Shown: positions 8,862 through 24,625 of the stretch, one piece after another
How positions within the stretch are numbered: the stretch's first letter is position 1
Layout of the letters: the number at the start of each line of letters is the position of its first letter
Origin: Hyphomicrobiales bacterium
GTDB taxonomy: Bacteria; Pseudomonadota; Alphaproteobacteria; Rhizobiales; OSC116
DNA: 64,000 bases
Direction: 5' to 3'
Assembly: GCA_013214705.1 (NCBI GenBank)
Contig: JABSRZ010000010.1
Span: 62,001 to 126,000, forward strand
The notes under the pieces: generated by a model
The model's input: the letters and a program-made list of their open reading frames with translations, nothing else
What the model was told of the DNA's origin: nothing
Database searches by the model: none
Translations under genes and position numbers: made by a program

Positions 8862-10403
8862 TTAAGGTGTGTAATTTATGGTGCCTTGTTTGGTCAGCAA
8901 CATATCCGACAAAGCATGATTTGTATTGGTCATCCGGTGGTTGAGCAATTTTTGGGTCATAGCTAGCAGGGTTTCGGCATATTCTGGGTTTGCCGCCAAA
9001 TTTGTCATTTCATCTGGGTCATTTGCCACATCAAATAATAACGCTGGCAGGCGGCCATTAAAATGCACAAGTTTATAATCTTGAGTGCGGATGAAGCATA
9101 GATTGGTTTCGCGCAGACCAATGCCAAAGGTTTGCTCGGTATATTCGGCCGTTCTGGGGTCGCCATAATCTAACTCGGCAAAAACATGCTGACGCCAGCC
9201 TTTGGGGGTTTCACCACTTAAAAATGGCATCAGCGAATGGCCATCCATAGCCACCGGAGCGGTTTGGCCAACCCAGTCTAGAATGGTCGGGGTGACATCA
9301 ATGGATTCAGTAAACATTTCGACTGATTTGCCGTGCATTTGTGGTTGATACGGGTCACGGATGATAAGCGGCACATGGTAGGCGGCATCATAAGCACATT
9401 GTTTGCCCCACATATGGTGGTCACCCAGCATTTCACCATGATCGGCCTTAATGACGATCAGCGTTTCGTCAAATTCGCCAGATTGTTTGAGTTGGTTTAT
9501 GATTCGGCCAATATGGTGATCCAATTCGGTAATCAGACCAAAATAAACTGAACGGGCAATGTGAATGGCCTCATCATCTTGTTCTTTGTCAAAACCCGCC
9601 ATCGGGCCTTTGATGATTGGGTGGCTTTTATAAGCTTGCAAATAATATTTATGAAACGGGTGGACATCGGCTTCATCTGCCACATTTTCGAGCCGTTTAG
9701 GCGGGGGAAAATCGGCATCTTGATACATTTGATTGTAAGGCGCGGGCGCCACCAGTGGCGGGTGCGGCCGAATATAGGTAATGTGGGCAAACCAATCTTC
9801 ATCCCTGCGCACCGACAATTCGTTTAACGCATAATCGGTCAAAAATGCGGTGTCGCTATCTTCGGCGCGGTAAAATGCGGGGTCGTTTAACTTAGCAGCC
9901 TGTCCATCCGGTGTCGCCGGAGTGAAAAAATCAGCATAAGCTGGCAATTTATAGCCTCGTGATTTGAGCGCCGCCCGCCATGGAAAGCTAGATTCAAACC
10001 GCATTTCGAGCTTTTCATTAAAGCCGGGCAACACTTGTTCATAATGGCGAATGTCAGGGTCGTTTGGGTGATGCTCGCGCGGGTCGAGGCTGGTGTCGGT
10101 ATAGCCAAACAACATCGGGTCATAACCGGCTTTGCGCATTTCGCGCGCCAAATTGGGTGTATTATGTGCCAAAGGTGTGCCATTGCGGATGGAGCGGTGG
10201 TTCATCGCATATTGGCCGGTTAGTATGCTGGCACGGGCAGGGCCACATGGGTTAACCACCGAATAATGGCGTTTAAAGCAGGTTGCATCGGCCATCAACG
10301 CTGTCAAATTTGGCATGTCGATATGCTCAGCCAACGCGCCAAACACACAATCTGCGCGCAATTGATCCATAATGATGAATAGAATTTTTTTGGGTTTTTG
10401 CAT
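8862..10403 (-). CDS. Phosphonate monoester hydrolase / phosphodiesterase (sulfatase superfamily)
   Basis: A 513-residue alkaline-phosphatase-superfamily enzyme. The nucleophile motif is C-G-P-A-R (NPCGPARASILTG, residue about 53), whose Cys would be matured to formylglycine. Metal ligands appear as MDQLRADC at the N-terminus and KADHGEMLGDHHMWGK near residue 320. The region after the nucleophile (YAMNHR, GYDPMLFGYTDTSLDPR, HNPN-like HHPNDP) closely follows the Rhizobium phosphonate monoester hydrolase, which cleaves phosphonate monoesters and phosphodiesters and promiscuously sulfate esters. It has no signal peptide, so it acts in the cytoplasm. It is the last gene of the transporter operon (67 bp after the ATPase), which suggests that the imported compound is its substrate. 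Confidence 0.82.
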   Translation of the reverse strand: MQKPKKILFIIMDQLRADCVFGALAEHIDMPNLTALMADATCFKRHYSVVNPCGPARASILTGQYAMNHRSIRNGTPLAHNTPNLAREMRKAGYDPMLFGYTDTSLDPREHHPNDPDIRHYEQVLPGFNEKLEMRFESSFPWRAALKSRGYKLPAYADFFTPATPDGQAAKLNDPAFYRAEDSDTAFLTDYALNELSVRRDEDWFAHITYIRPHPPLVAPAPYNQMYQDADFPPPKRLENVADEADVHPFHKYYLQAYKSHPIIKGPMAGFDKEQDDEAIHIARSVYFGLITELDHHIGRIINQLKQSGEFDETLIVIKADHGEMLGDHHMWGKQCAYDAAYHVPLIIRDPYQPQMHGKSVEMFTESIDVTPTILDWVGQTAPVAMDGHSLMPFLSGETPKGWRQHVFAELDYGDPRTAEYTEQTFGIGLRETNLCFIRTQDYKLVHFNGRLPALLFDVANDPDEMTNLAANPEYAETLLAMTQKLLNHRMTNTNHALSDMLLTKQGTINYTP

Positions 10404-10470: not shown

Positions 10471-11502
10471 CTATTTATCCATCAATTCTTGCCAGAAATG
10501 ACAGGCCACGCCATGTCCATCTTGCACCACCAACTCCGGCTCATCGACCCGGCATTTATCTTGCGCATGCGGGCAGCGGGTGTTGAATTTACAACCCGGT
10601 GGTGGGTTGGTAGGCGAGGGAATTTCGCCTTCCAATTTTTGGGCTTTGCCGCGGTCATCGGGGTCGAGCGATGGAATGGCACTGAGCAAAGCTCGGGTAT
10701 AGGGATGGCGAGGTTTGGCAAACAGCGCGCCGGTGGGGGCGCTTTCGACCAAGCGGCCTAAATACATAACAGCAACATGGTCGCACACATGCGCCACCAC
10801 GCTTAAATCGTGGCTGACGAACAAAAATGCCAAGCCCATTTCGCGTTGAATGTCTTTTAGCAGGTTAAGCACATCGGCTTGAATAGACACATCTAACGCG
10901 GCCACACTTTCATCGGCCACTATAAATTTGGGGTTAGACACCAAAGCCCGGGCGATGGAAATACGCTGGCGTTGACCACCAGAAAACGCATGTGGGAAGC
11001 GGCGTAAATGTTCTAAACTTAACCGGCATTTGGCGGCGATTTCGCGCACCCGGGCATCGGTTTCGGCACGGGTTTTGGTGAGACCCATAACTTCTAGCGG
11101 CTCGGCAATAATGTCCCGCACGGTCATACGGGGGCTGAGGGCTGCATAAGGGTCTTGAAAAATCAGTTGCGCGCGTTTGCGATAGTCTTTGAGATCAGCG
11201 CCTTTCAGCGTTTCGATGTTATAACTAACCTCACCGTCATTATATTCAATGCTGCCATGGGTGATGGGCGCGGCTTGCAACAAAGCCCGGCCAAGTGTGG
11301 TTTTGCCACTGCCACTTTCGCCAACCAAACCAAAAAAGCTGCCTGCGGCTATTTCTATATCTATGCCATCGACCGCGCGCACCACTGGTGGAGGGCCAAA
11401 TATCTTATTGCTACGCAACGGGTAATGAACCGATAGGCCTTTTGTCTTGATCAACGGCGTTTTGGTTGAAGCGGTATTGTTTGCGGTTTTTTTGTCGCTC
11501 AT
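10471..11502 (-). CDS. Family-5 ABC transporter ATPase, OppF/DppF-like
   Basis: A 343-residue ATPase with Walker A GESGSGKTT, signature FSGGQRQRISIAR and Walker B IVADESVAALDVS. In the last motif the usual DEP is DES, which is common enough in OppF-type proteins. The C-terminal oligopeptide-transporter extension contains the CxxxTRCPHAQDKC cysteine cluster (residues about 308-320) that binds Fe-S in related DppD. The start overlaps the preceding ATPase stop by four bases. It pairs with that ATPase to drive import. The substrate is unknown from sequence, but the operon context suggests an organophosphate. Confidence 0.9.
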   Translation of the reverse strand: MSDKKTANNTASTKTPLIKTKGLSVHYPLRSNKIFGPPPVVRAVDGIDIEIAAGSFFGLVGESGSGKTTLGRALLQAAPITHGSIEYNDGEVSYNIETLKGADLKDYRKRAQLIFQDPYAALSPRMTVRDIIAEPLEVMGLTKTRAETDARVREIAAKCRLSLEHLRRFPHAFSGGQRQRISIARALVSNPKFIVADESVAALDVSIQADVLNLLKDIQREMGLAFLFVSHDLSVVAHVCDHVAVMYLGRLVESAPTGALFAKPRHPYTRALLSAIPSLDPDDRGKAQKLEGEIPSPTNPPPGCKFNTRCPHAQDKCRVDEPELVVQDGHGVACHFWQELMDK

Positions 11503-12500
11503 GATGTAACCTCCTCATTCAGCAAATGGCAGGCGGCTTCATGGTCTTTTTTAAGTGTGGTAAATTCTGGCACGGTGGCTTGGCAGGCGGTCACCAGGTT
11601 TTTGGGGCATCTGGTGTGGAATACACAACCCGGCGGGCGCTCTAGTGGCGAAGGAATGTCGCCAGCAATGGCCTTTAACGGCACGTCCAAATTATCGAGT
11701 TGCGGCAAAGCGTCAATTAGCCCTTGGGTATAAGGATGGCTTGGGTTGCGTAATACATCCCGCACGCTGCCTTTTTCGATCAGTTTGCCTAAATACATAA
11801 CCGCCACATTATCGGCCGTTTGGGCAATAACCCCAAGGTCATGGGTGATGAATAAAATGCCCATGCCAAATTCTTTGACCAAATCTTTCATCAGATCAAT
11901 CACCTGCAATTGAATGGTCACATCTAAGGCGGTTGTCGGTTCATCGGCAATCAGTAATTTGGGTTTGGTGGATAATGCCATGGCAATCATCGCCCGTTGG
12001 CGCATGCCGCCCGAAAGTTCAAAAGCATATTGTTTAAAGCGTTTGTCAGCATCAGATATACCCACTCTGTCGAGCATTTCGATGGAATATTTTTTGGCTT
12101 TTGCGGCGTTATAATCGGTATGGATCAGCAATTGCTCAACCATTTGGTCACCAATTGTAATGGCCGGGGCAAAACTAGCCATTGGTTCTTGAAAAATCAT
12201 CGATATAGCGCCACCACGCGCCACCTTCATGTCTTTGGCAGATTTAATCTGCATAATGTCGATCGGCTCTTGCCCATCTAAATGCAGGTTAATTTTTGTG
12301 TCTTCACTATAAATCGCGTTACTGGGGTTAAGCCGCATTAGCGATTTGGCGGTGACAGATTTGCCGCTGCCGCTTTCGCCTACCAAGCCCAATATTTCGC
12401 CGGGCGCGATGGAAAACGACACATCATCGACCGCAGTGATCAACCCCTCATCGGTTTTAAATTGTAGGGTTAAATTTTCGACCTCTATTAATTTAGCCAT
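11499..12500 (-). CDS. Family-5 ABC transporter ATPase, OppD/DppD-like
   Basis: A 333-residue ATPase: Walker A GESGSGKSVT, a Q-loop in MIFQEPMASF, signature LSGGMRQRAMIAMAL and Walker B LLIADEPTTALDVT. The oligopeptide-type C-terminal domain has the cysteine motif CVFHTRCPKNLVTAC near residues 291-305. A start-stop overlap of one base with the upstream permease and four bases with the downstream ATPase shows a compact operon. Use of two different ATPases is typical of peptide, opine, nickel and glutathione-type importers. Confidence 0.9.
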   Translation of the reverse strand: MAKLIEVENLTLQFKTDEGLITAVDDVSFSIAPGEILGLVGESGSGKSVTAKSLMRLNPSNAIYSEDTKINLHLDGQEPIDIMQIKSAKDMKVARGGAISMIFQEPMASFAPAITIGDQMVEQLLIHTDYNAAKAKKYSIEMLDRVGISDADKRFKQYAFELSGGMRQRAMIAMALSTKPKLLIADEPTTALDVTIQLQVIDLMKDLVKEFGMGILFITHDLGVIAQTADNVAVMYLGKLIEKGSVRDVLRNPSHPYTQGLIDALPQLDNLDVPLKAIAGDIPSPLERPPGCVFHTRCPKNLVTACQATVPEFTTLKKDHEAACHLLNEEVTS

Positions 12501-13693
12501 TAATTATGCCCCCCATAAGGGTCAGCGGCATCTCGCAACCCATCGCCCACAAATACAAAGGCCAAAACCAAAGCGATGAAGAAAAATACTGGTATAAAAT
12601 ACCATTGATAATTGAGCAATACATCGGCTGAAGTCACATTTTGCAGCATAACCCCCAATGAGTTAACTGGGTCTTTTAATCCAAGGCCAATAAAGCTTAG
12701 CGCGGTTTCGGACAACACCATATAAGGGAATGAAATGACCAGATCGACAATGATATAAGAGGTGAAACTTGGCAATAAATGCTTGCGAATGATGTGGCCA
12801 GCAGATGCCCCGCTAAGCTGAGCTGCCAAGATATATTCTTGGTTGCGTTCGGTTAACAAATGGGTACGCACCCGCCGCGCTAAGGTTGGCCAACCAATCA
12901 GCCCCAGCACCATCGATATGAACAGGAATCGGGCTTCGGCGCTCCATTCGTCGGGTATGAAAGCTGCCAACGCCATAAATAGTGGAATGGACGGAATGGT
13001 TTTGACGGTGTCGGTAATCATTTGCAATACGCTGTCGAGCAGGCCGCCATAATAGCCAGCAACCCCGCCAATGGCTAAGGCCATAACAAAGGCAATAAAC
13101 ACCCCGATAGTGCCAACCGCCAACGATGTATTGATGGCGGTTAAGGTACGCGAATAAATGTCTTTACCGGTGCTATCAGTGCCAAAAATATGGATATAAT
13201 CTTTATCGACACCAAATAAATGAGTGTCAAAAGTGAAGCCCGGAATGGTGAAATCGAGCGCTTTGCCGGGTAGGTTTATTTCGAATTTAAGATAAGTATA
13301 TTTAACCCCGGTGGTGAAAAACTGCACATATCGCCGCGCCTCTAAATCGGTGCTGATGGTGGTGACCCACCTAAAATTGGTTTTGATCGAGCGGGTACGT
13401 TCGAAGCTATAGATGAACGGGCGCAAAGAGCAGCCATTATCATCGCAAAAGCTAGGAATTTGCGGCGCACCATTTAAATATTCTTTATCGCGGCCAGAAA
13501 TGGTCGGGTCATAAGGCGTTAGAAACGGCGCAAACACCCCTGAAAATATCAGTAAAATTAACACCCAAGCGCCAATTAATGCCGATTTATTTTTTTTGAA
13601 CCGTTGCCAAATAAGTTGGCCTTGCGAAGCGGTGAAATAAGCCTCTTTAAGTTTTTGCTCTTCAGCCGAGAGTTGGTTGGTCATGACGGACAT
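12500..13693 (-). CDS. Family-5 ABC transporter permease, OppC-like with long periplasmic insert
   Basis: A 397-residue binding-protein-dependent permease. The N-terminal OppC_N segment (WQRFKKNKSALIGAWVLILLIF) is followed by the first membrane helix. About 110 residues of periplasmic sequence then precede HLFGVDKDYIHIFGTDSTGKDIYSR, the usual start of the permease core. The insert carries two Cys (FCDDNGCS) that could form a disulfide. The EAA loop is seen in EYILAAQLSGASAGHIIRKHLLP. Such inserts occur in YejE-type and related permeases and may contact the binding protein. GGGGTG lies just ahead of the ATG. Confidence 0.88.
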   Translation of the reverse strand: MSVMTNQLSAEEQKLKEAYFTASQGQLIWQRFKKNKSALIGAWVLILLIFSGVFAPFLTPYDPTISGRDKEYLNGAPQIPSFCDDNGCSLRPFIYSFERTRSIKTNFRWVTTISTDLEARRYVQFFTTGVKYTYLKFEINLPGKALDFTIPGFTFDTHLFGVDKDYIHIFGTDSTGKDIYSRTLTAINTSLAVGTIGVFIAFVMALAIGGVAGYYGGLLDSVLQMITDTVKTIPSIPLFMALAAFIPDEWSAEARFLFISMVLGLIGWPTLARRVRTHLLTERNQEYILAAQLSGASAGHIIRKHLLPSFTSYIIVDLVISFPYMVLSETALSFIGLGLKDPVNSLGVMLQNVTSADVLLNYQWYFIPVFFFIALVLAFVFVGDGLRDAADPYGGHN

Positions 13694-13697
13694 TTTA

Positions 13698-14702
13698 TCA
13701 CCCCACTATGCCGCGTCTAACGCGCGGATCGGTTAGAGCCAAAATAATATCGGTCACAAAATTAATGGCGACAATGGCTGCGGTCAACATGAAAATAATG
13801 GCTCCTGCCAATTGTTGGTCATTCGATCTGGCCAATGCGTCAATGAGCAATGAACCAGCTTCAGTTAGCGTTAGAATGAGGGCAACGATGGGCAATTCGT
13901 TAAAAATACGATTGAGGTCAAAACCCAATGAATTGACGATGGGGCTTAACGCATGCCGAGCTGGGTAACGCATGAGCAATTTAGCCCCAGACACGCCCCG
14001 AGCTTCGGCGGCAGTTACATATAATTTACCGATTTCATCCGACATTAAAGCCCGCACAGTTTGAATGGCAAATGCCGTTGCTGACCAGCCCAAAATAAAT
14101 ATTGGCAACCACGCATGACCCAAGAAATCTAAAACTTTATCGTATGACCAAGGCGCATCGCGGAATTGTTTGGAAAACAGCCCGGTTAAACTATCGCCAA
14201 AATAAACGGTCGAAAATAACATAATCATCAGCGCTAAAAGAAAGTTTGGCAAAGCCAGACCCAAATAACTCACTAAGCGTAGGCTATTGTTTAAAAACGC
14301 GTTTTTTGAAGTGGCGGCCAATATGCCAACCGGAATGGCAATGGCATAGGCCAATAGAAGTGCTGAAAGACATAGGCCTAGGCTTAACCAAAACTTTTGG
14401 CCTAATAATTGGCTAATGTTCAAGCGTAATATGCAGCTATCGCCATATTCGCCTTGGAAGGCATTAAATATCCATTTGCCCCAACGTTCTAAATAAGGTC
14501 GGTCGAGACCAAGCCTTACACGTTCGACCTGAATGTCGGCCATGGTAATGACCGTGCCTTGGCTGCTTTTAAAGGCCACATAGCGCTCGGCACAATCGCC
14601 TGGCACTAGTTCCATAAGCGAAAATACGATGAATGAGACCAGCACAAGCGTGAATATGGCTAGAAAGGCGCGAATGGCAACAAATTTTGAAAATTGAAGC
14701 AT
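13698..14702 (-). CDS. Family-5 ABC transporter permease, OppB-like
   Basis: A 334-residue permease with six predicted helices. The N-terminal helix FLAIFTLVLVSFIVFSLMELVPGDCAE is typical of OppB/DppB. The EAA-type loop reads YVTAAEARGVSGAKLLMRYPARHALSPIVNSLG. It is the first permease of the operon, 82 bp after the binding-protein gene (that spacer holds a hairpin) and 4 bp ahead of the OppC-like gene. Confidence 0.9.
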   Translation of the reverse strand: MLQFSKFVAIRAFLAIFTLVLVSFIVFSLMELVPGDCAERYVAFKSSQGTVITMADIQVERVRLGLDRPYLERWGKWIFNAFQGEYGDSCILRLNISQLLGQKFWLSLGLCLSALLLAYAIAIPVGILAATSKNAFLNNSLRLVSYLGLALPNFLLALMIMLFSTVYFGDSLTGLFSKQFRDAPWSYDKVLDFLGHAWLPIFILGWSATAFAIQTVRALMSDEIGKLYVTAAEARGVSGAKLLMRYPARHALSPIVNSLGFDLNRIFNELPIVALILTLTEAGSLLIDALARSNDQQLAGAIIFMLTAAIVAINFVTDIILALTDPRVRRGIVG

Positions 14703-14784: not shown

Positions 14785-16824
14785 TTATTCAGTTAGGTAC
14801 CATTGTGGACCACGATATGGGTAAGCCCGCAAGAATGCACCTGATTGAATTTTGAACTTAGGGAAGTTCTTCAGGTTATTGCTATGATAGACCGGTAACA
14901 CAGCTTTAACTGTACCAATAAATAGCAAGTTATCAACCATGTTTTGAACCAATTTAGCACCTAGACGGTTAGACTCGTCTGTACCAACAACCGCAGATTG
15001 GAATGCATTAATGTCATCTATCATGTCATATGCATATTGCGGAGGTTTCACTCCAGAGCTACCATTTGTGTCTATATATTCAGCCCATAACATCGCTGTT
15101 CTGTGGTTGAAATATGTATCATATGGTGGCAAGAATAATTCTGCATTGCCAGAGATAATCGCCAATGGTGAACCTTTAGAATACATGGTCACATCGAGTT
15201 GGTTAGCAGATTGTGCAGAACGATATTCATCGGTCGTCACTTCTTTAACCGTATTGTCAATGCCAACATCTTTCCAATTTTGGCCAACAAGTTCAACCAA
15301 TTTAATGGAAATACCCTGTGTAGCCACTTGCAGGTTAAGTATCAGCTTATCGCCATTTGGCAAATCGCGCATACCGTCGCCATCTAAATCGACCACACCA
15401 GCTTCATCTAACAATTTATTTGCCAAAGCTACATCATATTGTGCGTGCGCTTGTTCCATTTCTTTGGTAATAAATGAAGGTGAAGGCGAGAAGCCGGTAT
15501 ATTGTTGCGGCGAGCCCAAACCAAGATAAGCCACTTCGTTGATCTGATCACGATCAATGGCGACAGACATAGCTTGACGGAATTTCAAGTTGTTGAACAC
15601 TTTGCGTTTTTCTTCATCAGCAGATGTGACGTTGAAGGCAAATGTACCCATTGAAATTTCTGGTTCTAGCTCAACTGTAAAGTTACCCTTTGCTTGACCC
15701 TCAAGTAGCATTGGCGCGTAATCGAGGTTCAACGCTTGGGTTTTATAGTCAACTTCTGAGTTAACTAATTTAAGCAAACGCACTTCGCTTTCGCTAACAA
15801 ATAACTCATCTTGCTCATTGATATATGGCAATTGGTTACCGGCTGTATCGACTTGGAAGAAATAAGGGTTAGCCACATAATGGCGACCTTCGGTGGTTTC
15901 TGAAATCACTTTGAATGATTCTAGCGTTGGCGCAGCGCCTGCTGGCATACCAGCCACTTTATCTGGGAAAGCCAGCATTGGTGTTGGTGTGTCCATCCAA
16001 TCTGAACCGCCATAATAAGCCGCGATAACCGCATAACCATTATCAAAGCCAATGGCTTGGGCATTGGCATCTGCATTGGCATCTACGCTTGGGTGAAAAC
16101 GACCAAGGAAATGCTTAGGTTGGAAACCTTGGGCATAACTTTGGGCAAAATGCGCCAACAGGCCAGGTTTTGGTGAAGGCAAATTAAACTGCACTGTTTG
16201 GGCATCAATAACCACAACTTCCATCGGCTCGCCGCCAACCAAAACATAGTCTTTGGTTTTTTCGCGCACATTGGTGTCGATAGCAATGTTGTCATACCAG
16301 AATTTTACGTCATCGGCAGTGAAGTCTGCACCATCTGACCATTTATGGCCTTTGCGCAAAACAAAAGTTAATTGGGTGAAGTCGTCATTCCATTCCCAAC
16401 TTTTTGCCACATTAGGTACAATGGTTTCAAGGTCATCTGAATAACGCACAAGGTTTACATGGCGTACAGACATCAGGTCTGTTGTGCCAGATTCTGTGGC
16501 GTTAGATAGCATGTCCAATGTTCCGCCATAAGTGCCGATGGCATCATATGGTGCCACAACTAGTGGTTCAGCTGGTAGTCGATCGGCCAAAGATGGCAAT
16601 GGGCCATTGCCTTGAATGCGGCTATTAAAATCGGCAGCGGCAGGGTTACCGGCAAATTCTAAATTACAATTGGCCAATGCTTCAAATTCGGCAAGTTCAT
16701 ATTGCTGCGGAAATGCACCCGCGGCAACGCCTTGGCTGTCACTCACTGTCACCGCTGGGCAAGCTGCAAATGCAGAACCCGTAAGCGCCATAATGGCAAC
16801 GCCTGACAAAAATAGTCTTTTCAT
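14785..16824 (-). CDS. Family-5 extracellular solute-binding protein
   Basis: A 679-residue SBP_bac_5 protein, longer than typical DppA/OppA (about 530-540). A signal peptide (cut near AFA-ACPAV, residue 20) is present. The family signature appears as PNVAKSWEWNDDFTQLTFVLRKGHKWSDGADFTADDVKFWYD (around residues 135-176). The extra length and the N-terminal ADRLPAEPLVVAPYDAIGTYGGTLDML resemble the large alphaproteobacterial binding proteins related to YejA/opine-type systems. It is the first gene of the operon. The ligand is unknown; the phosphoesterase at the operon's end hints at an organophosphate. Confidence 0.88.
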   Translation of the reverse strand: MKRLFLSGVAIMALTGSAFAACPAVTVSDSQGVAAGAFPQQYELAEFEALANCNLEFAGNPAAADFNSRIQGNGPLPSLADRLPAEPLVVAPYDAIGTYGGTLDMLSNATESGTTDLMSVRHVNLVRYSDDLETIVPNVAKSWEWNDDFTQLTFVLRKGHKWSDGADFTADDVKFWYDNIAIDTNVREKTKDYVLVGGEPMEVVVIDAQTVQFNLPSPKPGLLAHFAQSYAQGFQPKHFLGRFHPSVDANADANAQAIGFDNGYAVIAAYYGGSDWMDTPTPMLAFPDKVAGMPAGAAPTLESFKVISETTEGRHYVANPYFFQVDTAGNQLPYINEQDELFVSESEVRLLKLVNSEVDYKTQALNLDYAPMLLEGQAKGNFTVELEPEISMGTFAFNVTSADEEKRKVFNNLKFRQAMSVAIDRDQINEVAYLGLGSPQQYTGFSPSPSFITKEMEQAHAQYDVALANKLLDEAGVVDLDGDGMRDLPNGDKLILNLQVATQGISIKLVELVGQNWKDVGIDNTVKEVTTDEYRSAQSANQLDVTMYSKGSPLAIISGNAELFLPPYDTYFNHRTAMLWAEYIDTNGSSGVKPPQYAYDMIDDINAFQSAVVGTDESNRLGAKLVQNMVDNLLFIGTVKAVLPVYHSNNLKNFPKFKIQSGAFLRAYPYRGPQWYLTE

Positions 16825-17045: not shown

Positions 17046-17085
17046 GGTTTCCACAAATTTCCAATAATACAAGTTTATCCACAAA
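17046..17085 (-). promoter_or_regulatory. DeoR-locus operator repeat, copy 1
   Basis: Read on the minus strand, this 40-bp element starts TTTGTGGATA, has TTG at position 14 and ATTG at position 21, and has TTTGTGGA again at position 29, so the two half-elements are 28 bp apart. It faces the transporter operon, whose first ATG is about 220 bp away. About 26 of the first 36 positions are identical in the two copies beyond the DeoR gene. A role as operator is inferred. Confidence 0.6.
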
Positions 17086-17097
17086 CTCTACCAAAAA

Positions 17098-17162
17098 TCA
17101 AGTGAATATTAAATATTATTTAATCTGGCCTTGGTTCAGATCTAAACTTGATATTCACTTGA
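17098..17162. repeat. 12-bp inverted repeat upstream of the DeoR gene
   Basis: TCAAGTGAATAT (17098-17109) and its exact reverse complement (17151-17162) flank a 41-bp AT-rich spacer. The right arm ends about 70 bp before the DeoR-type ATG. It could be a second operator pair or a promoter-proximal loop. The rest of the 410-bp spacer 16825-17234 holds operator copy 1 and nothing else I recognise. Confidence 0.6.
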
Positions 17163-17234
17163 ATAAAACCGGCTATTAGTGTAGCACTTCTAGGGTATTA
17201 GGCGCTATTTAAGCATTAGGATGAATACTGAAAC

Positions 17235-18002
17235 ATGTGGTCTGCAACCCGTCATCAAAAGATATTAGCCATCTTAAATAAACAGCAACAAATCACCACT
17301 GATGGGCTGGCCGAGGAATTTAATGTCTCGCGCGAAACCATACGCCGTGACCTGCTATTGCTAGAATCTGAAGGCAGTATAGACCGGATTCATGGCGGGG
17401 CTATTCTTTCAAAAACCATTAATGAGCAGCCGTTTCTGAAACGGGTGAATAGCCACCAGAAGGAAAAACGCAGCATTGCCAAATTAGCAATGCAGTTGAT
17501 ACAGCCCAACCAAAGTATTTTTTTGGATGCCGGAACCACCACCACAATTTTTGCCGCAGAGCTTAGAAAACTGCCAGAATTGTTAATAGTGACCAATTCT
17601 ATTGACGTAGCGACAACGCTGCAAAGCGCTGGTAGCAAGTCTAAACTCATATTGCTCGGTGGGCAGTTAATAAGCGATGTACCGGGCACTTTTGGCGAAC
17701 TTACAATGGCCGAAATTGGCCGTTTTAACGTAGACATGGCGTTTTTAAGCCCGGTGTCTGTGAATGCCAAGCAAGGCGCGGCTTATTTTGAGCTGCATGA
17801 GGCTGAATTGGCGCGGGCTATGGCTAATAATGCCAAAAAACTAGTGATAATGGCCGATCATGGCAAATTAGGCGAAGTGAGCCGTGTTAAGTGTAAAGAT
17901 TGCACCGAAATTGATTTGCTTATCACCGGAGCGGCAGCCGAAGAGCCTATTATACGCGACCTTCAAGCCGCCGGATTAAAATCCGTTCAACTAGCTAAAT
18001 AG
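17235..18002 (+). CDS. DeoR/GlpR-family transcriptional regulator
   Basis: A 255-residue regulator. An N-terminal DeoR helix-turn-helix (TTDGLAEEFNVSRETIRRDLLLLESEGSIDRIHGGA, residues about 20-55) is followed by the DeoR C-terminal sensor domain. The latter contains FLDAGTTTTIFAAEL, VTNSIDVA, LLGGQLISDVPGTFG and VIMADHGKLG, the sugar-phosphate-isomerase-like fold that normally binds a phosphorylated metabolite. It sits between two divergently arranged operons (ABC transporter/phosphoesterase to the left, phosphatase/ligase/dehydrogenases to the right). The same 40-bp element occurs on both sides, so it probably represses both. No strong ribosome site precedes this ATG. Confidence 0.9.
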   Translation: MWSATRHQKILAILNKQQQITTDGLAEEFNVSRETIRRDLLLLESEGSIDRIHGGAILSKTINEQPFLKRVNSHQKEKRSIAKLAMQLIQPNQSIFLDAGTTTTIFAAELRKLPELLIVTNSIDVATTLQSAGSKSKLILLGGQLISDVPGTFGELTMAEIGRFNVDMAFLSPVSVNAKQGAAYFELHEAELARAMANNAKKLVIMADHGKLGEVSRVKCKDCTEIDLLITGAAAEEPIIRDLQAAGLKSVQLAK

Positions 18003-18140
18003 ACAAATAACTGATGGCTAAATGGATAAATCACTAATTTTACCCTAAAATAAAACCGTTAATTTTGTGGATTTTTGACCGCTTTATGGGGCTGCTGAGC
18101 TTTTGCCATTTACTAATTTCATGTTCTATGAGAGACTGAA

Positions 18141-18180
18141 ATTGTGGATAACTTTGCAAAATTGGATATTTGTGGATTTA
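18141..18180 (+). promoter_or_regulatory. DeoR-locus operator repeat, copy 2
   Basis: A 40-bp element starting ATTGTGGATA, with ATTG at position 21 and TTTGTGGA at position 29. It matches copy 3 at 33 of 40 positions and points toward the HisN-like gene. A single half-element TTTGTGGA also occurs earlier, at 18064-18071. TGTGGATAA inside it equals a DnaA box, but the whole 40-bp repeat is better explained as a regulator site. Confidence 0.6.
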
Positions 18181-18192
18181 TTTTTACGCAAT

Positions 18193-18232
18193 AATGTGGA
18201 TATGTTTGCATTATTGTATATTTGTGGAATTA
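18193..18232 (+). promoter_or_regulatory. DeoR-locus operator repeat, copy 3
   Basis: A 40-bp element starting AATGTGGATA, with TTTGCA in the middle and TTTGTGGA at position 29. It begins 52 bp after copy 2, in the same direction, and ends 43 bp before the HisN-like start codon, overlapping where a promoter would be expected. That placement fits repression. Confidence 0.6.
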
Positions 18233-18275
18233 TGTTTTGTAACAAATAGCGCAATGTTAATTTGGGAGATGTTTG

Positions 18276-19091
18276 GTGAAACAAAATAAAATGTTAGACA
18301 TAACCGACAATGAATCGGTTGCCCAATTCACTCAATTTGCACTTGAATTGGCAGATATTGGCCGCAAAAACGCCATGAAATATTTTCGTAAAACTTTAAA
18401 AATTGACAATAAGCCCGACCGCTCACCCGTGACCATTGCCGACCGTGAGGTTGAAATGAAAATGCGTAGCCTGATTGGTGAAAATTATCCTGACCATGGA
18501 ATATTTGGCGAAGAACATGGCCAAGAAAATGTTGACCACCCGCAATTATGGGTATTAGACCCGATTGATGGCACAAAAAGTTTTGTCACCGGCATGCCAA
18601 CATTTGGCAGTTTAATTTCATTTTTGGTGGCTGGCCAACCCACCATTGGTGTGCTTGAAATGCCAGCGTTAAACGAACGCTGGCTCGGAGTGGTTGGCAA
18701 ACCGACATTATTTAACCAAGACCCTTGCCAGACCAGCAGTTGTAAAACTCTTGAACAGGCCAAAATATATGCAACTTCAATAGATATGTTCAGCGATGCG
18801 GAGCGGCAAATTTATTATCAAGTTAGCTCGTTAGCCGCTATAAGGCGGTTTGGTGGCGACTGTTATTCATACGGCCTATTGGCCTCTGGACATATAGATG
18901 TGGTGATGGAATCGACTTTGGAGCCATATGATTATCTGGCGCTGGTGCCGGTGGTGCAAGGCGCGGGTGGGGTGATAACCGACTGGAGCGGCAAACCACT
19001 TGATTTGCATTCAGCCGGCAATGTCTTGGCCTCGGCCACGCCAGAGTTGCACCAACAGGTTTTAGACCTGATCGCGAAAAATGGCGGTTAA
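18276..19091 (+). CDS. Inositol-monophosphatase family phosphatase, HisN-like
   Basis: A GTG start at 18276 is preferred because GGGAG lies 7 bp upstream; the first in-frame ATG is 15 bases later and too far from it. Metal-site motifs of the Li+-sensitive phosphatase superfamily are present: GEEHG (near residue 78), DPIDGTKSF (near 93) and EPYDYLALVPVVQGAGG (near 215). DPIDGTKSFVTGMPTFGSLI is typical of HisN-type histidinol-phosphate phosphatases, which cleave the phosphate from an amino alcohol. It leads an operon with a glutamyl ligase and dehydrogenases rather than his genes, so a catabolic role on an imported amino-alcohol phosphate is plausible. A histidine biosynthesis role cannot be excluded. 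Confidence 0.85.
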   Translation: MKQNKMLDITDNESVAQFTQFALELADIGRKNAMKYFRKTLKIDNKPDRSPVTIADREVEMKMRSLIGENYPDHGIFGEEHGQENVDHPQLWVLDPIDGTKSFVTGMPTFGSLISFLVAGQPTIGVLEMPALNERWLGVVGKPTLFNQDPCQTSSCKTLEQAKIYATSIDMFSDAERQIYYQVSSLAAIRRFGGDCYSYGLLASGHIDVVMESTLEPYDYLALVPVVQGAGGVITDWSGKPLDLHSAGNVLASATPELHQQVLDLIAKNGG

Positions 19092-19869
19092 TATGCATTC
19101 ATCCCTGCCAAGCCCAACTGTGGCGCTAATTAACCCAGACAACGTTCCGCGTGTGGTTTTAATTTGCGAGCATGCGTCTAACTATATTCCGCCCGAATAT
19201 AACAATCTGGGGTTAGATGATGCAGCGCTTAACAGCCACATTGCGTGGGACCCGGGCGCGCTAGCTGTGGCGCAATATATGGCCAAAACATTGGCAGCGC
19301 CATTGCTGGTACAAAATATATCTCGCTTGGTTTATGATTGCAACCGCCCGCCAGATGAACCGACAGCAATGCGCGACAGCAGCGAAATTTATGAAATTCC
19401 CGGCAATTTAAATTTGACCGTTGAGCAGAAACAAACCCGGGTTGAAAAATATTACCAAACCTTTAACCAAGCGGTGTCGCTAATTGTGGATGGACAAATA
19501 GCCCAGGGCAACCCGCCCATCATCGTGACCATTCATTCTTTCACCCCTACATATAATGGCCAACAACGCGCAGTCGAAATTGGCATATTGCACGATGATG
19601 ATGCTCGTTTTGCCGACCGAATGTTAAACACAATAGCCGATGATACGCGCTTTAACACCCAAAGAAACCAGCCTTATGGGCCAGAAGATGGCGTTACCCA
19701 TACCATTGTGTTGCATGGCCAGTCTAAAGGCCTGTTAAATGTAATGATTGAAATTCGCAGCGACTTAATTGACACTAAAAATGACCAACAAGAGATGGCT
19801 ACATATCTAGCGCAAATTATTAAGAAATGTGTCGCAAACCAAAAAATAAATGGAGCAAAAAATGGCTAA
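19081..19869 (+). CDS. N-formylglutamate-amidohydrolase-like enzyme (COG3931 type)
   Basis: A 262-residue hydrolase. Family marks are LICEHASNYIP (residues about 22-32), HIAWDPGALAVA, IHSFTPTYNG and the metal/arginine motif MIEIRSDLI near residue 220. Characterised relatives (HutG) release glutamate from N-formylglutamate; this COG3931 branch is largely uncharacterised. It overlaps the end of the phosphatase gene by 11 bp and the start of the glutamine-synthetase-like gene by 8 bp, so the three are translationally coupled. An ATG at 19093 is an alternative start. Next to a glutamyl ligase, it could hydrolyse a gamma-glutamyl amide (inference). Confidence 0.8.
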   Translation: MAVNMHSSLPSPTVALINPDNVPRVVLICEHASNYIPPEYNNLGLDDAALNSHIAWDPGALAVAQYMAKTLAAPLLVQNISRLVYDCNRPPDEPTAMRDSSEIYEIPGNLNLTVEQKQTRVEKYYQTFNQAVSLIVDGQIAQGNPPIIVTIHSFTPTYNGQQRAVEIGILHDDDARFADRMLNTIADDTRFNTQRNQPYGPEDGVTHTIVLHGQSKGLLNVMIEIRSDLIDTKNDQQEMATYLAQIIKKCVANQKINGAKNG

Positions 19870-21235
19870 TAATCTAAATTTTGATGAGTTGAAAGCCAAA
19901 GTTAGCAATGGCGAAATTGACACTATATTGGTTTGTTTGGTCGATATGCAAGGCCGATTGCTGGGCAAGCGCTTTCATGCTCAATATTTCATCGATAGTG
20001 AAGCGGGTGACACTCATGCGTGCAACTATCTATTGGCCACTGATTATGACATGGCACCGGTCAAAGGTTATAAAGCCACAAGTTGGGACGCGGGTTATGG
20101 CGATTATACCATGCGGCCAGATTTAGATACATTATGTCTTATGCCTTGGCTAGAAGGCACAGCCATGGTGTTGTGCGATGTGATAAATCATACCACTCAT
20201 AAAGAAGTGGCGCATTCGCCGCGTGCGATTTTAAAACGCCAAGTGGCAAAGCTAGCTAAAATGGGCTTAAAGCCGATGATGGCATCAGAATTAGAGTTTT
20301 TTCTGTTTAACAATAGTTTTGAGGCGGCACAAAAAGGCGGATATAGCGATCTAGATCTGGTCAGTGCTTATAATGAAGATTACCATATATTCCAAACCAC
20401 AAAAGAAGAAGATGTAATGCGCGCTATCCGCAATGGCTTATATGGCGCGGGCATAACTGTCGAATGTTCAAAAGGTGAAGCCTCCGCCGGGCAAGAAGAA
20501 ATAAACGTTAAATATGATGAAGCGCTCATTTCGGCCGACAATCATGTGGTGATAAAAAACGCCTGCAAAGAGATTGCTTGGGCCAAAGGCAAAGCCCTCA
20601 CATTTATGGCCAAATGGAACAATGCCTCGGCCGGTTCATCCTCGCATGTGCATCAATCACTGTGGAGCTTAGATGGCAAACAAGCCTTATTTGCCGATAA
20701 AAACGACCCTAATGGCATGAGCGAATTAATGCAGCATTATGTGGCCGGTTTACTTAAATATGCCAAAGACACAACTTTATTTTTAGCGCCAAACATCAAC
20801 TCCTATAAACGCTTTCAGGAAGGCACATTTGCCCCGACCAAAACCGTATGGAGTTTGGACAACAGAACCGCGGGCTACAGGTTATGCGGCGCAGGCAGCA
20901 AAGCCGTGCGCATTGAATGCCGAGTTGGCGGCTCCGACCTTAACCCTTATTTGGCGTTTGCTGCATTGTTGGCAGCGGGCATAAAAGGCATTGAAGACAA
21001 GTTAACTTTAGCCCCAGCATTTGTTGGTGATGCTTATGCGGCCGATGCAGGTACGGAAGATATACCCAATACTTTGCGCGCTGCTGCCCAAGAGCTAGAC
21101 AAATCGACAATGTTGCGCGCGGCCTTTGGCGATGACGTGATTGACCATTATGTGCATGGCGCGAAATGGGAGCTACAATTATTTGACCAACAAGTGACGG
21201 ATTGGGAAGTGACCCGTGGCTTTGAGAATGCATAA
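19862..21235 (+). CDS. Glutamine-synthetase-like gamma-glutamyl-amine ligase
   Basis: The ATG at 19862 is chosen for its GGAG 6 bp upstream. It encodes 457 residues with the glutamine-synthetase catalytic fold: the metal-binding SELEFFLF, GQEEINVKYDEAL, NASAGSSSHVHQSLW, the ATP-site SYKRFQEGTFAPT, and NRTAGYRL with RIECRVGGSDLNPYLAFAALLAAG near the C-terminus. The N-terminal VCLVDMQGRLLGKR and the overall sequence are those of GlnT/PuuA-type enzymes, which attach glutamate to amines (putrescine, ethanolamine, methylamine) rather than to ammonia. Neighbouring aldehyde and alcohol dehydrogenases suggest the amine carries an alcohol group. True substrate unproven. Confidence 0.87.
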   Translation: MANNLNFDELKAKVSNGEIDTILVCLVDMQGRLLGKRFHAQYFIDSEAGDTHACNYLLATDYDMAPVKGYKATSWDAGYGDYTMRPDLDTLCLMPWLEGTAMVLCDVINHTTHKEVAHSPRAILKRQVAKLAKMGLKPMMASELEFFLFNNSFEAAQKGGYSDLDLVSAYNEDYHIFQTTKEEDVMRAIRNGLYGAGITVECSKGEASAGQEEINVKYDEALISADNHVVIKNACKEIAWAKGKALTFMAKWNNASAGSSSHVHQSLWSLDGKQALFADKNDPNGMSELMQHYVAGLLKYAKDTTLFLAPNINSYKRFQEGTFAPTKTVWSLDNRTAGYRLCGAGSKAVRIECRVGGSDLNPYLAFAALLAAGIKGIEDKLTLAPAFVGDAYAADAGTEDIPNTLRAAAQELDKSTMLRAAFGDDVIDHYVHGAKWELQLFDQQVTDWEVTRGFENA

Positions 21236-21274
21236 TTCTCGTGGCTTAGAAAATACATAAATTGAGGAAATAAA

Positions 21275-22657
21275 ATGTCAAAACTAACCTGTATTTCGCC
21301 CATTGATGGCAGCATATATGCCCAGCGTGACATTCAGTCAGTGGCTGAGGTGACAAAAAAAGTGGCAGCTGCGCGTGTGGCGCAAAAACAATGGGCAGCA
21401 ACGCCTTTAGCTGAACGGATAAGAATTACCGAAGCCGCCATTGCCGCGCTCGAAGCGATGAATGATGGCATTGTCATAGATTTAGCTCATTTGATGGGCA
21501 GGCCGGTACGCTATGGTGGCGAAATTGGTGGGGTGAAAGAGCGGGCGTTGCACATGACTTCGATTGCCGAAGCCGCGTTAGCGCCGGTGGTGATTGAAGA
21601 GAATGAGAATTTTAGCCGCTATATTGCCAAACAAGCTGTCGGCATAGTGTTGGTCATCGCGCCGTGGAATTACCCATTTTTAACTGCCGTTAACTGCATT
21701 GTGCCGGCCTTGGTGGCTGGCAACGCGGTGGTGCTTAAACATTCGACCCAAACCTTAACCGCCGGCGAGCGGTTTGCCCAAGCGTTTGAACAAGCTGGAC
21801 TGCCTACAGGTCTGTTCACCAATATTTTTGTGTCACATGACATATCGTCTAAACTTTTGGAAAACCGCACATTTGATTTTGTCAATTTTACCGGCTCGGT
21901 CGGTGGTGGCCAACAAATCGAACGCGCAGCGGCGGGCACATTTGTCGGCGTTGGCTTAGAACTTGGTGGCAAAGACCCGGGCTATGTGCGCGCAGATGCC
22001 AATTTAGATGATGCGGTCGAAACCCTAATTGACGGCGCGATGTTTAACAGCGGCCAATGTTGTTGTGGTATCGAGCGGATATATGTGCATGAAAGCCTGT
22101 TTGATGAATTTGTCGCCAAAGCCAAAACCATTGTCGAAGGCTATATATTGGGCAACCCGTTAGAGGCCGCAACCACCATGGGGCCAATGGCTCATAAACG
22201 TTTTGCAGATGAGGTGCGTGGGCAAATTAGTGAAGCTCTAGACGCGGGTGCAACATCGGTTATAGACCGTAGTAAATTTACCCGCGATACCGGTCAAGAT
22301 GCCTATTTAGCGCCGGAAATTCTGATTAATGTTGACCATACTATGCGGGTGATGAAAGACGAAAGTTTTGGCCCTGTGATTGGCATCATGAAAGTATCTT
22401 CAGATGCTGAAGCCATAAAACTGATGAATGACAGTGACTTTGGTTTATCGGCCTCTATTTGGACAAAAGATAGCGAAGCTGCTGCAACCATTGGCCGCCA
22501 AATTGACACCGGCACTATATATATGAATAGATGTGATTATTTAGACCCAGCCCTATGTTGGACCGGCTGCAAAGACACCGGGCGCGGCATATCACTTTCG
22601 GCTTTTGGTTATGACAGCGTCACACGAGTAAAATCTTACCATTTAAAGAAAAATTAG
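21275..22657 (+). CDS. NAD(P)-dependent aldehyde dehydrogenase
   Basis: A 460-residue ALDH superfamily protein. The cofactor region includes APWNYPFLTAVNCIVPALVAGNAVVLKHS and FTGSVGGGQQI; the catalytic Glu is in LELGGKDPGYV, and the nucleophile is in FNSGQCCCGIERIYV, where three consecutive Cys lie after Gln. The ending ALCWTGCKDTGRGISLSAFGYDSVTRVKSYHLK is typical. GAGGAAATAAA precedes the ATG. It lies 39 bp after the ligase and 11 bp before the iron alcohol dehydrogenase, so it probably oxidises the aldehyde that enzyme makes. Confidence 0.92.
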   Translation: MSKLTCISPIDGSIYAQRDIQSVAEVTKKVAAARVAQKQWAATPLAERIRITEAAIAALEAMNDGIVIDLAHLMGRPVRYGGEIGGVKERALHMTSIAEAALAPVVIEENENFSRYIAKQAVGIVLVIAPWNYPFLTAVNCIVPALVAGNAVVLKHSTQTLTAGERFAQAFEQAGLPTGLFTNIFVSHDISSKLLENRTFDFVNFTGSVGGGQQIERAAAGTFVGVGLELGGKDPGYVRADANLDDAVETLIDGAMFNSGQCCCGIERIYVHESLFDEFVAKAKTIVEGYILGNPLEAATTMGPMAHKRFADEVRGQISEALDAGATSVIDRSKFTRDTGQDAYLAPEILINVDHTMRVMKDESFGPVIGIMKVSSDAEAIKLMNDSDFGLSASIWTKDSEAAATIGRQIDTGTIYMNRCDYLDPALCWTGCKDTGRGISLSAFGYDSVTRVKSYHLKKN

Positions 22658-22668
22658 AGGCATAAATT

Positions 22669-23832
22669 ATGGATTATTTTGGCAATTGGAGCTATCCCAC
22701 CCAGATAAAATTTGGCAATGGCCGCATTAATGAGCTTGCAAAAACCTGCCTAGAAAATGGCATTAAGCGGCCATTATTGGTGACCGATAAAGGCCTTGCT
22801 AGCCTGCCCATCACCCAAAATGCTTTGGATACTTTGGCCGCTGGCGGCGTGAAAGCGGCTTTGTTTAGCGATGTTGACCCCAACCCAAATGAAAAAAATC
22901 TTAACGATGGTGTGGCGGCTTTTAAGGCTGGCGACCATGATGGGGTTATCGCCTTTGGTGGTGGCTCCGGGCTAGATTTGGGTAAATTGGTGGCGTTAAT
23001 GGCTGGCCAAACCCTTAAAGCGCCGCTTAATAGCGTTTGGGATTTAGAAGATGTTGGTGACTGGTACACCCGCGCCAATGCCGATGCCATATATCCGGTT
23101 ATTGCCGTGCCAACCACGGCTGGCACTGGCTCTGAAGTTGGCCGCGCTGGCGTTTTGACCGACAGCAAAACCGAAACCAAGAAAATTATATTTCACCCCA
23201 AACTGATGCCAGTGACGGTGATATGTGACCCCGAATTAACCGTCGGCATGCCGCCAATGATTACCGCCGGTACGGGTATGGACGCGTTTGCACATTGTTT
23301 GGAAGCTTTTTGCAGCCCGCATTACCACCCGATGAGCCAAGGCATTGCGCTTGAAGGCATGCGCTTGGTCAAAGACAATTTATTAAACGTTTATACCAAT
23401 AGCACCGACCTTGTTGGCCGCGCCGAAATGATGTCGGCCGCCGCTATGGGCGCGACGGCGTTTCAAAAAGGTTTGGGCGCAATACATGCCTTATCTCACC
23501 CGATTGGCGCGGTGTATCACACCCATCATGGCACCACAAATGCGGTGGTTATGCAGCCAGTGCTGAATTATAACCGGCCAAAAATTGAAACCCGGATTGA
23601 ACAAGCGGCTGCCTATTTGGGCATATCCGGTGGGTTTGATGGCTTTTACAATTTTGTTGGTGCGTTAAATGACGCGCTGAAAATACCTAAAAATCTGGCC
23701 GAGTTGGGTGTGGATATAAATGACATAGACCGTTTGGCGGCTATGGCATTGTTAGACCCTAGCACGGGCGGCAACCCAGTAGAGATGACTTTAGAAAACA
23801 CCAAACAACTGCTAAAGAGTTGTTTTAATTAG
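22669..23832 (+). CDS. Iron-containing alcohol dehydrogenase
   Basis: A 387-residue group III (FeADH) dehydrogenase. The NAD-site GGGSGLDLGK is near residue 98, PTTAGTGSEVGRAGV near 145, and metal ligands lie in GTGMDAFAHCLEAFCSPHYHPMSQGI, in LGAIHALSHPIGAVYHTHHGTTNAVVMQPVL and nearby. RBS-like GAGG precedes the ATG. It is the last gene of the five-gene operon, and its end overlaps the end of the convergent TetR gene by eight bases. The substrate is unknown; in the model proposed here it is a gamma-glutamyl amino alcohol. Confidence 0.92.
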   Translation: MDYFGNWSYPTQIKFGNGRINELAKTCLENGIKRPLLVTDKGLASLPITQNALDTLAAGGVKAALFSDVDPNPNEKNLNDGVAAFKAGDHDGVIAFGGGSGLDLGKLVALMAGQTLKAPLNSVWDLEDVGDWYTRANADAIYPVIAVPTTAGTGSEVGRAGVLTDSKTETKKIIFHPKLMPVTVICDPELTVGMPPMITAGTGMDAFAHCLEAFCSPHYHPMSQGIALEGMRLVKDNLLNVYTNSTDLVGRAEMMSAAAMGATAFQKGLGAIHALSHPIGAVYHTHHGTTNAVVMQPVLNYNRPKIETRIEQAAAYLGISGGFDGFYNFVGALNDALKIPKNLAELGVDINDIDRLAAMALLDPSTGGNPVEMTLENTKQLLKSCFN

Positions 23833-24538
23833 TATCATTTTCATAAAGCCGGTCCAGAATTTCATCAGGTAGATCAAACCCAGTGAGTTGTTTAAAATAT
23901 ATTGGCAAATATTGCTGTCGCTGGGTTTCGGTTTCGATGACCTTCATCGAGTAATAACCGATTTGATGAAAATACAATATACGCGCGCGGATGAAAGCCT
24001 CAGCCGGGCTATAGTCCAAACCTAAAAACGCAATTCTTAGCGCTTCAATGCGGCGGTTGTCGACTTGCTCCACCGCCTCCGCAGCGTCTTTATAGTGCCG
24101 CCCCCAATCGCGCATGGCAGAATCTAATTTTGGTGAATAGGAACGCTCACGCAGCAAGCGGGTGAAAAACCTAAAAAACGGTTCAAGCGGGGTGGCGTTT
24201 TGTCCGTTTAACGCATTTAACAGCGGGTCATTTTTTTCATCTGACCAGTCTGCTAACAGCAAATCCAATATATGTTGGCGGTTTTGAAAAAACCAATAAT
24301 AGCCGCCGCGCGATACTTTCAAATTTTTGGACAATCGATCTATTTTTACATTTTCCACCCCGCCGTGGATCAGCAGATTTCTGGCCTCTGCCAGCCACTG
24401 CGCGCGTGATGTTTTGGTATTGCCCCTTGTCTTGTTTGGGGTTGTCTTGTTTGGGGTTGTCTTGTTTGGGTTTTTTATATTGGCTTTTTTCTGGCTATTT
24501 ATTTTGGCTGGGTTTGGTTTCATAGTTTTATATAACAT
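23825..24538 (-). CDS. TetR-family regulator, likely controlling soxBDAG
   Basis: A 237-residue regulator with the N-terminal TetR helix-turn-helix (LLIHGGVENVKIDRLSKNLKVSRGGYYWFFQNRQHILDLLL). Before it lies a basic, low-complexity arm of about 40 residues (Lys/Asn/Thr-rich), part of it coded by a 15-bp tandem repeat. Codons at 24538 and 24523 are both possible starts, neither with a good ribosome site. A 22-bp perfect palindrome lies immediately upstream, between this gene and divergent soxB, so it most likely regulates itself and the sarcosine oxidase genes. The ligand is unknown. Confidence 0.85.
   Translation of the reverse strand: MLYKTMKPNPAKINSQKKANIKNPNKTTPNKTTPNKTRGNTKTSRAQWLAEARNLLIHGGVENVKIDRLSKNLKVSRGGYYWFFQNRQHILDLLLADWSDEKNDPLLNALNGQNATPLEPFFRFFTRLLRERSYSPKLDSAMRDWGRHYKDAAEAVEQVDNRRIEALRIAFLGLDYSPAEAFIRARILYFHQIGYYSMKVIETETQRQQYLPIYFKQLTGFDLPDEILDRLYENDTN
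24431..24470 (-). repeat. 15-bp tandem repeat inside the TetR gene
   Basis: CTTGTTTGGGGTTGT occurs twice in a row (24431-24445, 24446-24460), followed by a 10-bp partial copy. Being a multiple of three it keeps the frame and encodes repeated Asn-Lys-Thr-Thr-Pro in the N-terminal arm. Copy number may vary between strains. Confidence 0.9.
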
Positions 24539-24560: not shown

Positions 24561-24625
24561 AACTTGACCGATTATTTTTGCCTATCTACACTGCGGTATA
24601 ATTTCAGCTCGACCGAGGGATGTTT

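Follow-up and report, generated by a model that had tools for sequence, protein, structure and literature searches.

What is the function of three similar 40-bp elements that lie on both sides of a gene for a DeoR-family regulator, and which protein reads them? The elements were found in a stretch of 64,000 nucleotides (hereafter the window), where each stands next to one of two operons (Table 1). In the first-pass annotation they had been described as a composite operator through which one regulator controls both operons. Judged from sequence, the copies are very probably a real and conserved operator of the adjacent DeoR regulator.

Table 1. Features around the DeoR gene, with positions counted from the first nucleotide of the window
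Feature	Position	Strand	Remarks
Sulfatase-superfamily hydrolase	8862..10403	-	Nearest to the phosphoric/sulfuric ester hydrolase PehA
Two ABC permeases and two ATPases	10471..14702	-	Assigned by position and likeness to annotated loci
Family-5 extracellular solute-binding protein	14785..16824	-	First gene of the left operon
Operator copy 1	17046..17085	-	Points to the ABC-transporter/PehA operon; units in order TGGATAAACT TGTATTAT TGGAAATTTG TGGAAACC
DeoR-family regulator (HTH_DeoR and DeoRC)	17235..18002	+	Pfam; proposed binder of the three copies
Lone half-element TTTTGTGGATTT	18063..18074	+	Function doubtful
Operator copy 2	18141..18180	+	Points to the IMP operon; units in order TGGATAACTT TGCAAAAT TGGATATTTG TGGATTTA
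Operator copy 3	18193..18232	+	52 bp after copy 2; units in order TGGATATGTT TGCATTAT TGTATATTTG TGGAATTA
Inositol-monophosphatase family protein (IMP), histidinol-phosphatase-like (HisN)	18273..19091	+	First gene of the right operon; alternative GTG start possible at 18276
N-formylglutamate amidohydrolase family, candidate gamma-glutamylglycine amidohydrolase	19081..19869	+	Pfam; function by analogy with PMC10132767
Glutamine-synthetase-like ligase (GS)	19850..21235	+	Candidate gamma-glutamylation enzyme
Aldehyde dehydrogenase (ALDH)	21275..22657	+	Pfam
Iron-containing alcohol dehydrogenase (ADH)	22669..23832	+	Pfam

The coordinates and strands first assigned to the three copies were recovered unchanged, and every copy indeed reads toward the operon that adjoins it. 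Compared in pairs, the copies share 29, 29, and 33 of 40 bases, and the 26 invariant positions counted earlier hold (26/40 across the three copies, all inside positions 3-36). A 34-base pattern with up to three mismatches matches exactly three times in the window and not once in 100 dinucleotide shuffles. The genome-wide search that had been suggested as a check gave the same answer, since this pattern, at the same tolerance, has exactly three matches in the 3,516,053-base assembly (45 contigs, 98.87% complete) and its reversed control has none. The three copies and a copy in a sister genome were used to build a sequence-only profile, which they accordingly match by construction; it finds the three sites at E values of 2.3e-9 to 1.1e-8 (150 of 3079 first-look candidates were scored), while the next-best site in the genome has E 0.13. 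The three copies are real, far beyond chance, and are the sole strong copies in the 3.5-Mb assembly; as there are three sites only and nothing else reaches E < 0.1, the regulon looks local, with two operons and three sites. The single half-element, previously placed at 18064, was seen as well (Table 1), with no good second unit 8 or 10 bp downstream. Promoter-like sites near the copies show no excess (4, compared with 4.4 in shuffles), and terminator-like sites are no more frequent than in shuffles.

The element is also present in a related genome. Among six genomes of the genus, the DeoR orthologue and the element were both found in the window genome (G000) and in the sister genome G003, and neither the orthologue nor the element (at up to three mismatches) was found in G001, G002, G004, and G005, of which G002 and G004 are 71 and 75% complete. 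The sister DeoR is 63% identical to that of the window. The element of G003 has the same spacing and is identical to copies 1, 2, and 3 at 28, 31, and 30 of 40 bases, respectively, leaving 23/40 positions invariant across the four copies. In that genome, the genes for DeoR, IMP, the binding protein, four transporter proteins, and PehA all share one orientation, and the single element sits in the gap that separates DeoR from IMP. The 20 kb retrieved there showed no genes for GS, aldehyde or alcohol dehydrogenase, or amidohydrolase. A single orientation with a single element, as opposed to two operons in the window, suggests that one operator stands before each operon.

The genomes G001 and G005, to which the transporter loci L042 and L043 belong (identical match coordinates), encode a solute-binding protein that is 90% identical to that of the window. 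Their best DeoR protein is at most 34% identical, the element matrix gives a score under 0 for the 600 bases upstream of its gene, and profile matches in both genomes are no better than E 0.079. Because a transporter protein of 90% identity occurs here without DeoR orthologue or element, the element appears to follow the regulator and not the transporter. The sample of six genomes is small and its two holders may be sister lineages; the co-occurrence could therefore reflect a single event. A first contig scan with the DeoR protein as query confirmed no relatives. When the solute-binding protein was used as query instead and the best 80 of 290 loci were taken, the DeoR orthologue (63%) was found at one of them, which is that of the sister genome (L045); flank lengths differ among the 80 loci, and the absence of an orthologue elsewhere is therefore partial.

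The window regulator belongs to the DeoR family by both of its domains (PF08220 with 64.3 bits at a cut-off of 21, PF00455 with 143.2 bits at a cut-off of 31.8) and falls below the cut-off of every listed NCBIfam model, including GlpR, AgaR, SrlR, UlaR, and DeoR (best score 164.6 of 300). Relatives of 41-50% identity were gathered from named plasmids and other genomes. A maximum-likelihood tree was computed from 57 DeoR proteins; it separates a set of 30, made up of 28 relatives and the two genus sequences, from the remaining 27 with support of 100/99. The tree was midpoint-rooted, and the term clade depends on that root. Named holders include the Alphaproteobacteria Sagittula, Azospirillum, Paracoccus, Acidisoma, Thioclava, and Roseinatronobacter, the Betaproteobacteria Burkholderia, Ideonella, and Caballeronia, and an Enterobacter plasmid. 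Arginine at helix position 33 is found in 29/30 clade members versus 4/27 proteins outside and is a candidate specificity residue. An IMP/HisN gene lies near the DeoR gene in 11 of the 23 clade loci outside the genus (L127, L128, L129, L039, L138, L137, L158, L159, L160, L157, and L035); L041 has a short IMP-like reading frame (58 residues matched), and in the other 11 loci such a gene was not seen within the stretch fetched. A search of solved-structure sequences with E up to 0.001 returned one distinct sequence, the deoxyribose operon repressor 7l6l, which matches residues 76-248 of the window DeoR, with the DNA-binding domain outside the match. No paper was recognised as describing this clade in the literature searched on DeoR-family repeat operators and phosphoethanolamine, in which subscription journals were covered in small part.

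Outside the clade, another group of DeoR proteins (29-35% identical to the window DeoR) adjoins PehA-like hydrolases and has TGTGGATTT-type repeats (L104:8109-8144, L119:8115-8150, and L037:9089), so that the operator style may predate the clade studied here. L037, a Ruegeria conchae plasmid, carries the gene set of the window (amidohydrolase, GS, ALDH, ADH, transporter, PehA-like hydrolase, and IMP) together with two DeoR genes, both of this other group.

A related motif was learned without the genus. An expectation-maximisation search used 29 upstream regions, drawn from 23 distant loci, and the training omitted the near-duplicates L131, L149, L150, and L151, the near-copies L040 and L139 (of L138 and L039, respectively), and other near-identical plasmid matches. 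The resulting 36-bp motif TGgATTTtTGTGgatTTtTGTGtgTTTgTGcaTTTg has a log-likelihood ratio of 302, versus 118-136 in eight shuffles. Over the 64-kb window copy 3 is its best match (18197, 34.5 bits) and is overlapped by the next two; copy 2 comes fourth (18145, 20.0 bits), ahead of an unrelated fifth match (18.0 bits), and the top six do not include copy 1. In 20 kb of G003 the element ranks second (18.0 bits) behind an unrelated match of 21.9 bits. Motifs of other widths were set aside: at 18 bp the motif held too much A/T for specificity in the window, and at 27 bp it stood in between. When 30 coding bases were included, widths 27 and 36 picked up a conserved stretch that was interpreted as the beginning of deoR, and the search was rerun without these bases.

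In left-one-group-out scans, which covered up to 9.7 kb per locus, the median best score was 21.7 bits in the 23 clade loci versus 6.8 in 20 paralogue loci that served as controls with the full motif (two of them shorter, 5.5 and 6.8 kb; Mann-Whitney p = 2e-5), a comparison that spans genomes of differing base composition, which may affect scores. Twelve of the 23 clade loci exceed the best control (20.0 bits) and 11 do not; among the latter are L137, L135, L157, L158, L159, and L160, in which the top match is weak or misplaced.

How is the element built? The first-pass annotation had recognised two GTGGA half-sites, always 28 bp apart. This holds for all three copies in the window, whereas the sister-genome copy has GTGCA as the second. 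The direct-repeat character of the element thus stands, but the anatomy was incomplete: the GTGGA half-sites are the outer members of four direct TGNAWW units at steps of 10-8-10 bp, and the inner two units fall in what had been listed as TTG at 14 and ATTG at 21. From the sequences, the element is very probably built of four units rather than two. With its short direct repeats at a periodicity of about 10 bp beside the presumed target operons, the element resembles tandem-repeat operators of the RhaR type.

The unit TGNAWW was fixed from the four genus copies alone, in which 15/16 units fit, and was then counted in the 29 upstream regions of the 23 distant loci and in 200 shuffles. Pairs of units occur 10 times at 10 bp, 7 times at 18 bp, 3 times at 28 bp, and twice at 8 bp, at shuffle means of 0.41, 0.41, 0.36, and 0.34; 0, 0, 2, and 6 of the 200 shuffles, respectively, reach these counts. 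Lag 14 is likewise high (3 pairs, equalled by 2/200 shuffles). In 54 control regions of 27 paralogue loci, 0, 1, 0, and 1 pairs were counted at lags 10, 18, 28, and 8, as in shuffles. A looser TGNATTT-like unit, chosen after the motif and the regions had been seen, gave 38 pairs at 10 bp, 25 at 18 bp, 21 at 8 bp, and 13 at 28 bp (shuffle means 5.1-5.4). These four lags all exceed every one of 100 shuffles, as do lags 12, 20, and 24. In the control paralogues this unit is slightly high at lag 8 (21, shuffle maximum 19), equals the shuffle maximum at lag 10 (15), and shows no enrichment at lags 18 and 28.

When 729 four-unit spacings were tried, 10-10-8 came first (16.83 of 24) and 10-8-10 second (16.39), compared with a mean of 14.36 (sd 0.52) over all spacings and 12.8 in 20 shuffles. 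As 10-10-8 is marginally better than 10-8-10, the arrays seem to vary around steps of 10 and 8. The array of L155 fits 10-8-10 at 24/24 positions, and for copy 1 an alternative register scores 16 of 24, as does the aligned one. Reading the array as even 9-bp units was dropped, the spacing tests being against it. Eighteen chosen elements (4 from the genus, 14 distant) were aligned on their first unit, with L041, L137, and L136 anchored by hand and L136b omitted from the position counts; all 18 have the G of the second unit, 18 retain the T of the third and 17 its G, and in the fourth unit each of these two bases is retained by 16.

Taken as an operator, such an array would consist of two pairs of TGNA(T/A)(T/A) units, with the units of a pair 10 bp apart and the pairs themselves at a distance of 18 bp, and by analogy one DeoR tetramer (a dimer of dimers) may occupy one four-unit array. 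Since 18 bp correspond to 1.7 helical turns, the two pairs within an array would lie on different faces of the DNA. Copies 2 and 3, by contrast, are 52 bp apart, which is 4.95 turns at 10.5 bp per turn, or about five, so that two tetramers bound to them would share a face and could cooperate. We consider it likely that the copies are the operator of the DeoR protein encoded between them, which would repress both operons until a phosphorylated inducer releases it. Sequence, conservation, co-occurrence, and spacing are the observed part of this model, from which we infer binding, the tetramer, repression, and the inducer. Without inducer, DeoR would repress the transporter/PehA operon via copy 1 and the IMP-amidohydrolase-GS-ALDH-ADH operon via copies 2 and 3, and a phosphorylated substrate or pathway intermediate would release it. 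Repression is preferred over activation from the habit of the family, as promoter-like sites near the copies are not above shuffles. That one regulator serves both operons, as claimed initially, is made probable by the presence and absence in the genus, by the gene order of G003, and by the related motif beside the DeoR clade, all of which are sequence arguments.

Other explanations of the copies have to be weighed against this model. The 9-mer TTATCCACA, which we take to be a DnaA box, occurs perfectly in copies 1 and 2, which hold the only two perfect boxes in the window, and with one mismatch in copy 3, as would be expected if the copies formed a replication or DnaA-controlled site. Yet distant arrays carry units such as TGTATTT, TGCATTT, and TGGATTT without the 9-mer, the element co-occurs with the DeoR orthologue in the genus and was not found in 4/6 genus genomes, and the window shows no clear excess of boxes when one mismatch is allowed (25 versus 17.1 expected; 7/100 shuffles are as high). 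The boxes are thus not kept in relatives independently of the local regulator, and a DnaA function has the slimmest chance of the explanations considered. It is also very unlikely that the copies are recent duplications of promoter DNA that are alike by descent alone. This would suit copies 2 and 3, which have 33/40 bases in common only 52 bp apart, but not copy 1, which is about 1.1 kb off in the opposite orientation and before a different operon; moreover, G003 keeps 28-31 of the 40 bases despite a DeoR identity of 63%, and the same spacing is found again in distant loci.

Binding of DeoR to the copies is deduced from sequence, and another regulator, such as the TetR protein encoded at 23825-24538 or one encoded elsewhere, could bind them while DeoR acts at other sites. 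Direct repeats are also used by other families, for example AraC (PMC3870299). We regard this as improbable, as the motif occurs beside DeoR-clade members with varied neighbours, and no relative of the window TetR was seen in the sister stretch or in the DeoR loci compared. Among the 80 transporter loci (best of 290) and 5 plasmid loci, a TetR relative was found at one (L086), where it is 29% identical and encoded about 7.5 kb from the binding-protein gene. The adjacent DeoR protein is therefore retained as the likely reader of the copies.

What would such a regulon be for? The genes of the gamma-glutamyl ethanolamine set (ligase, alcohol and aldehyde dehydrogenase, and amidohydrolase), with classes assigned by Pfam, lie together in the right operon and stand in the same order in Ruegeria conchae. 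The left operon encodes the transporter, whose permease and ATPase counterparts are 82-87% identical in G003 and are annotated as such in R. conchae, and the PehA-like hydrolase, which scores 493 bits, below the curated cut-off of 900. The four enzyme classes, a possible diester hydrolase, and a phosphatase together suggest the uptake and breakdown of an ethanolamine phosphoester. By analogy, the regulon may thus handle the uptake and breakdown of a phosphate-bearing compound, perhaps such an ester.

Within the clade, ethanolamine ammonia-lyase genes are found at L041 and at L138 of Azospirillum argentinense, a choline/ethanolamine kinase family gene at L158, and a phosphocholine-specific phospholipase C gene at L134. 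At L127 and L128, GS, ALDH, and iron-containing ADH homologues adjoin IMP, and that GS is only 30% identical to the one in the window. At L038 (CP049030.1), a transporter related to that of the window, with a binding protein of 48% identity, is encoded together with a PehA-like hydrolase and adjoins genes for 2-aminoethylphosphonate transaminase and phosphonoacetaldehyde hydrolase, neighbours that point to aminoethyl-phosphorus substrates.

A broader reading is offered tentatively and is, in our estimate, rather doubtful. Here, an Alpha-, Beta-, and Gammaproteobacterial DeoR clade would read alternating 10/8-bp units as two in-phase pairs rotated against each other and bound by a tetramer, a mode seen in no family structure found. 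The regulon would import an intact phosphorylated head-group by the ABC transporter (glycerophospho- or phosphoethanolamine, for example), which would be cut and dephosphorylated inside before its amine is degraded by gamma-glutamylation.

Direct-repeat sites are known from other DeoR-family regulators, namely IolR and AgaR, which have other unit sequences and belong to other pathways. The closest precedent is RhaR of Chloroflexus aurantiacus, also of the DeoR family, which was tested by EMSA on a 38-bp fragment holding four TCGAAA sites in tandem and comes off its DNA with L-rhamnulose, an intermediate of the pathway (PMC3870299). RhaR is a local regulator of a catabolic operon with an operator of four tandem sites, as is proposed here for the window DeoR, and DeoR-family RhaR motifs have a periodicity of 10-11 bp. 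The unit differs, however (TGNATTT instead of TCGAAA), as do the genes (phosphatase and amine genes instead of rhamnose genes), and the alternating 10-8-10 spacing is not among the features found for Chloroflexus RhaR in the part of that source considered (PMC3870299). Four-unit operators of the DeoR family were hence already known before this element. A mechanistic model for a four-unit site is provided by DeoR of Bacillus subtilis and CggR, in which a tetramer formed as a dimer of dimers sits on repeat operators, yet these proteins belong to the SorC family, a different one despite the name (PMC11229326).

The gamma-glutamylation pathway of ethanolamine has been described in Phaeobacter sp. 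MED193, where the ligase, two dehydrogenases, and amidohydrolase are of the same classes as the products of the window genes at 19081-23832, a comparison made by class only (PMC10132767). MED193 uses a TRAP type transporter (EtoX) with an adjoining RpiR type regulator, whereas the window has an ABC transporter and DeoR. The main text of that source does not mention DeoR; it reports that GlpR, annotated as the glycerol-3-phosphate regulon repressor, was raised on phosphorylethanolamine (PMC10132767). In Streptomyces, a gamma-glutamyl ethanolamine pathway was deduced from a cluster with a short-chain dehydrogenase in the place of the iron-containing one (PMC6529630).

The interest of the locus lies in a DeoR clade with a clear operator and a likely substrate. 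For a DeoR group whose window member is left unnamed by curated models and whose genes often adjoin those for transport and for a HisN-like phosphatase, it provides an operator that can be tested and a local regulon as a prediction. Structural work on a DeoR-family protein bound to DNA would find a concrete target in the four-unit 10-8-10 geometry. If the regulon imports intact phospholipid head-groups, its genes would be candidates for Pho-independent use of organic phosphorus, a pathway that remains to be determined according to PMC10132767.

Two further observations concern the surroundings of the copies. Beyond the right operon, sarcosine-oxidase-like genes follow the TetR gene (24620-29176; the beta subunit identified by TIGR01373, the two genes after it by where they lie and how long they are). 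They are without a copy of the element in the pattern search of the window and may extend amine catabolism. Between deoR and the transporter operon lies a 15-nt inverted repeat (17098-17112 and 17148-17162), 93% complementary and with 35 nt between its arms, which may belong to the deoR promoter or to some other site; a ACTTGAATA-like stretch precedes deoR in the sister genome too.
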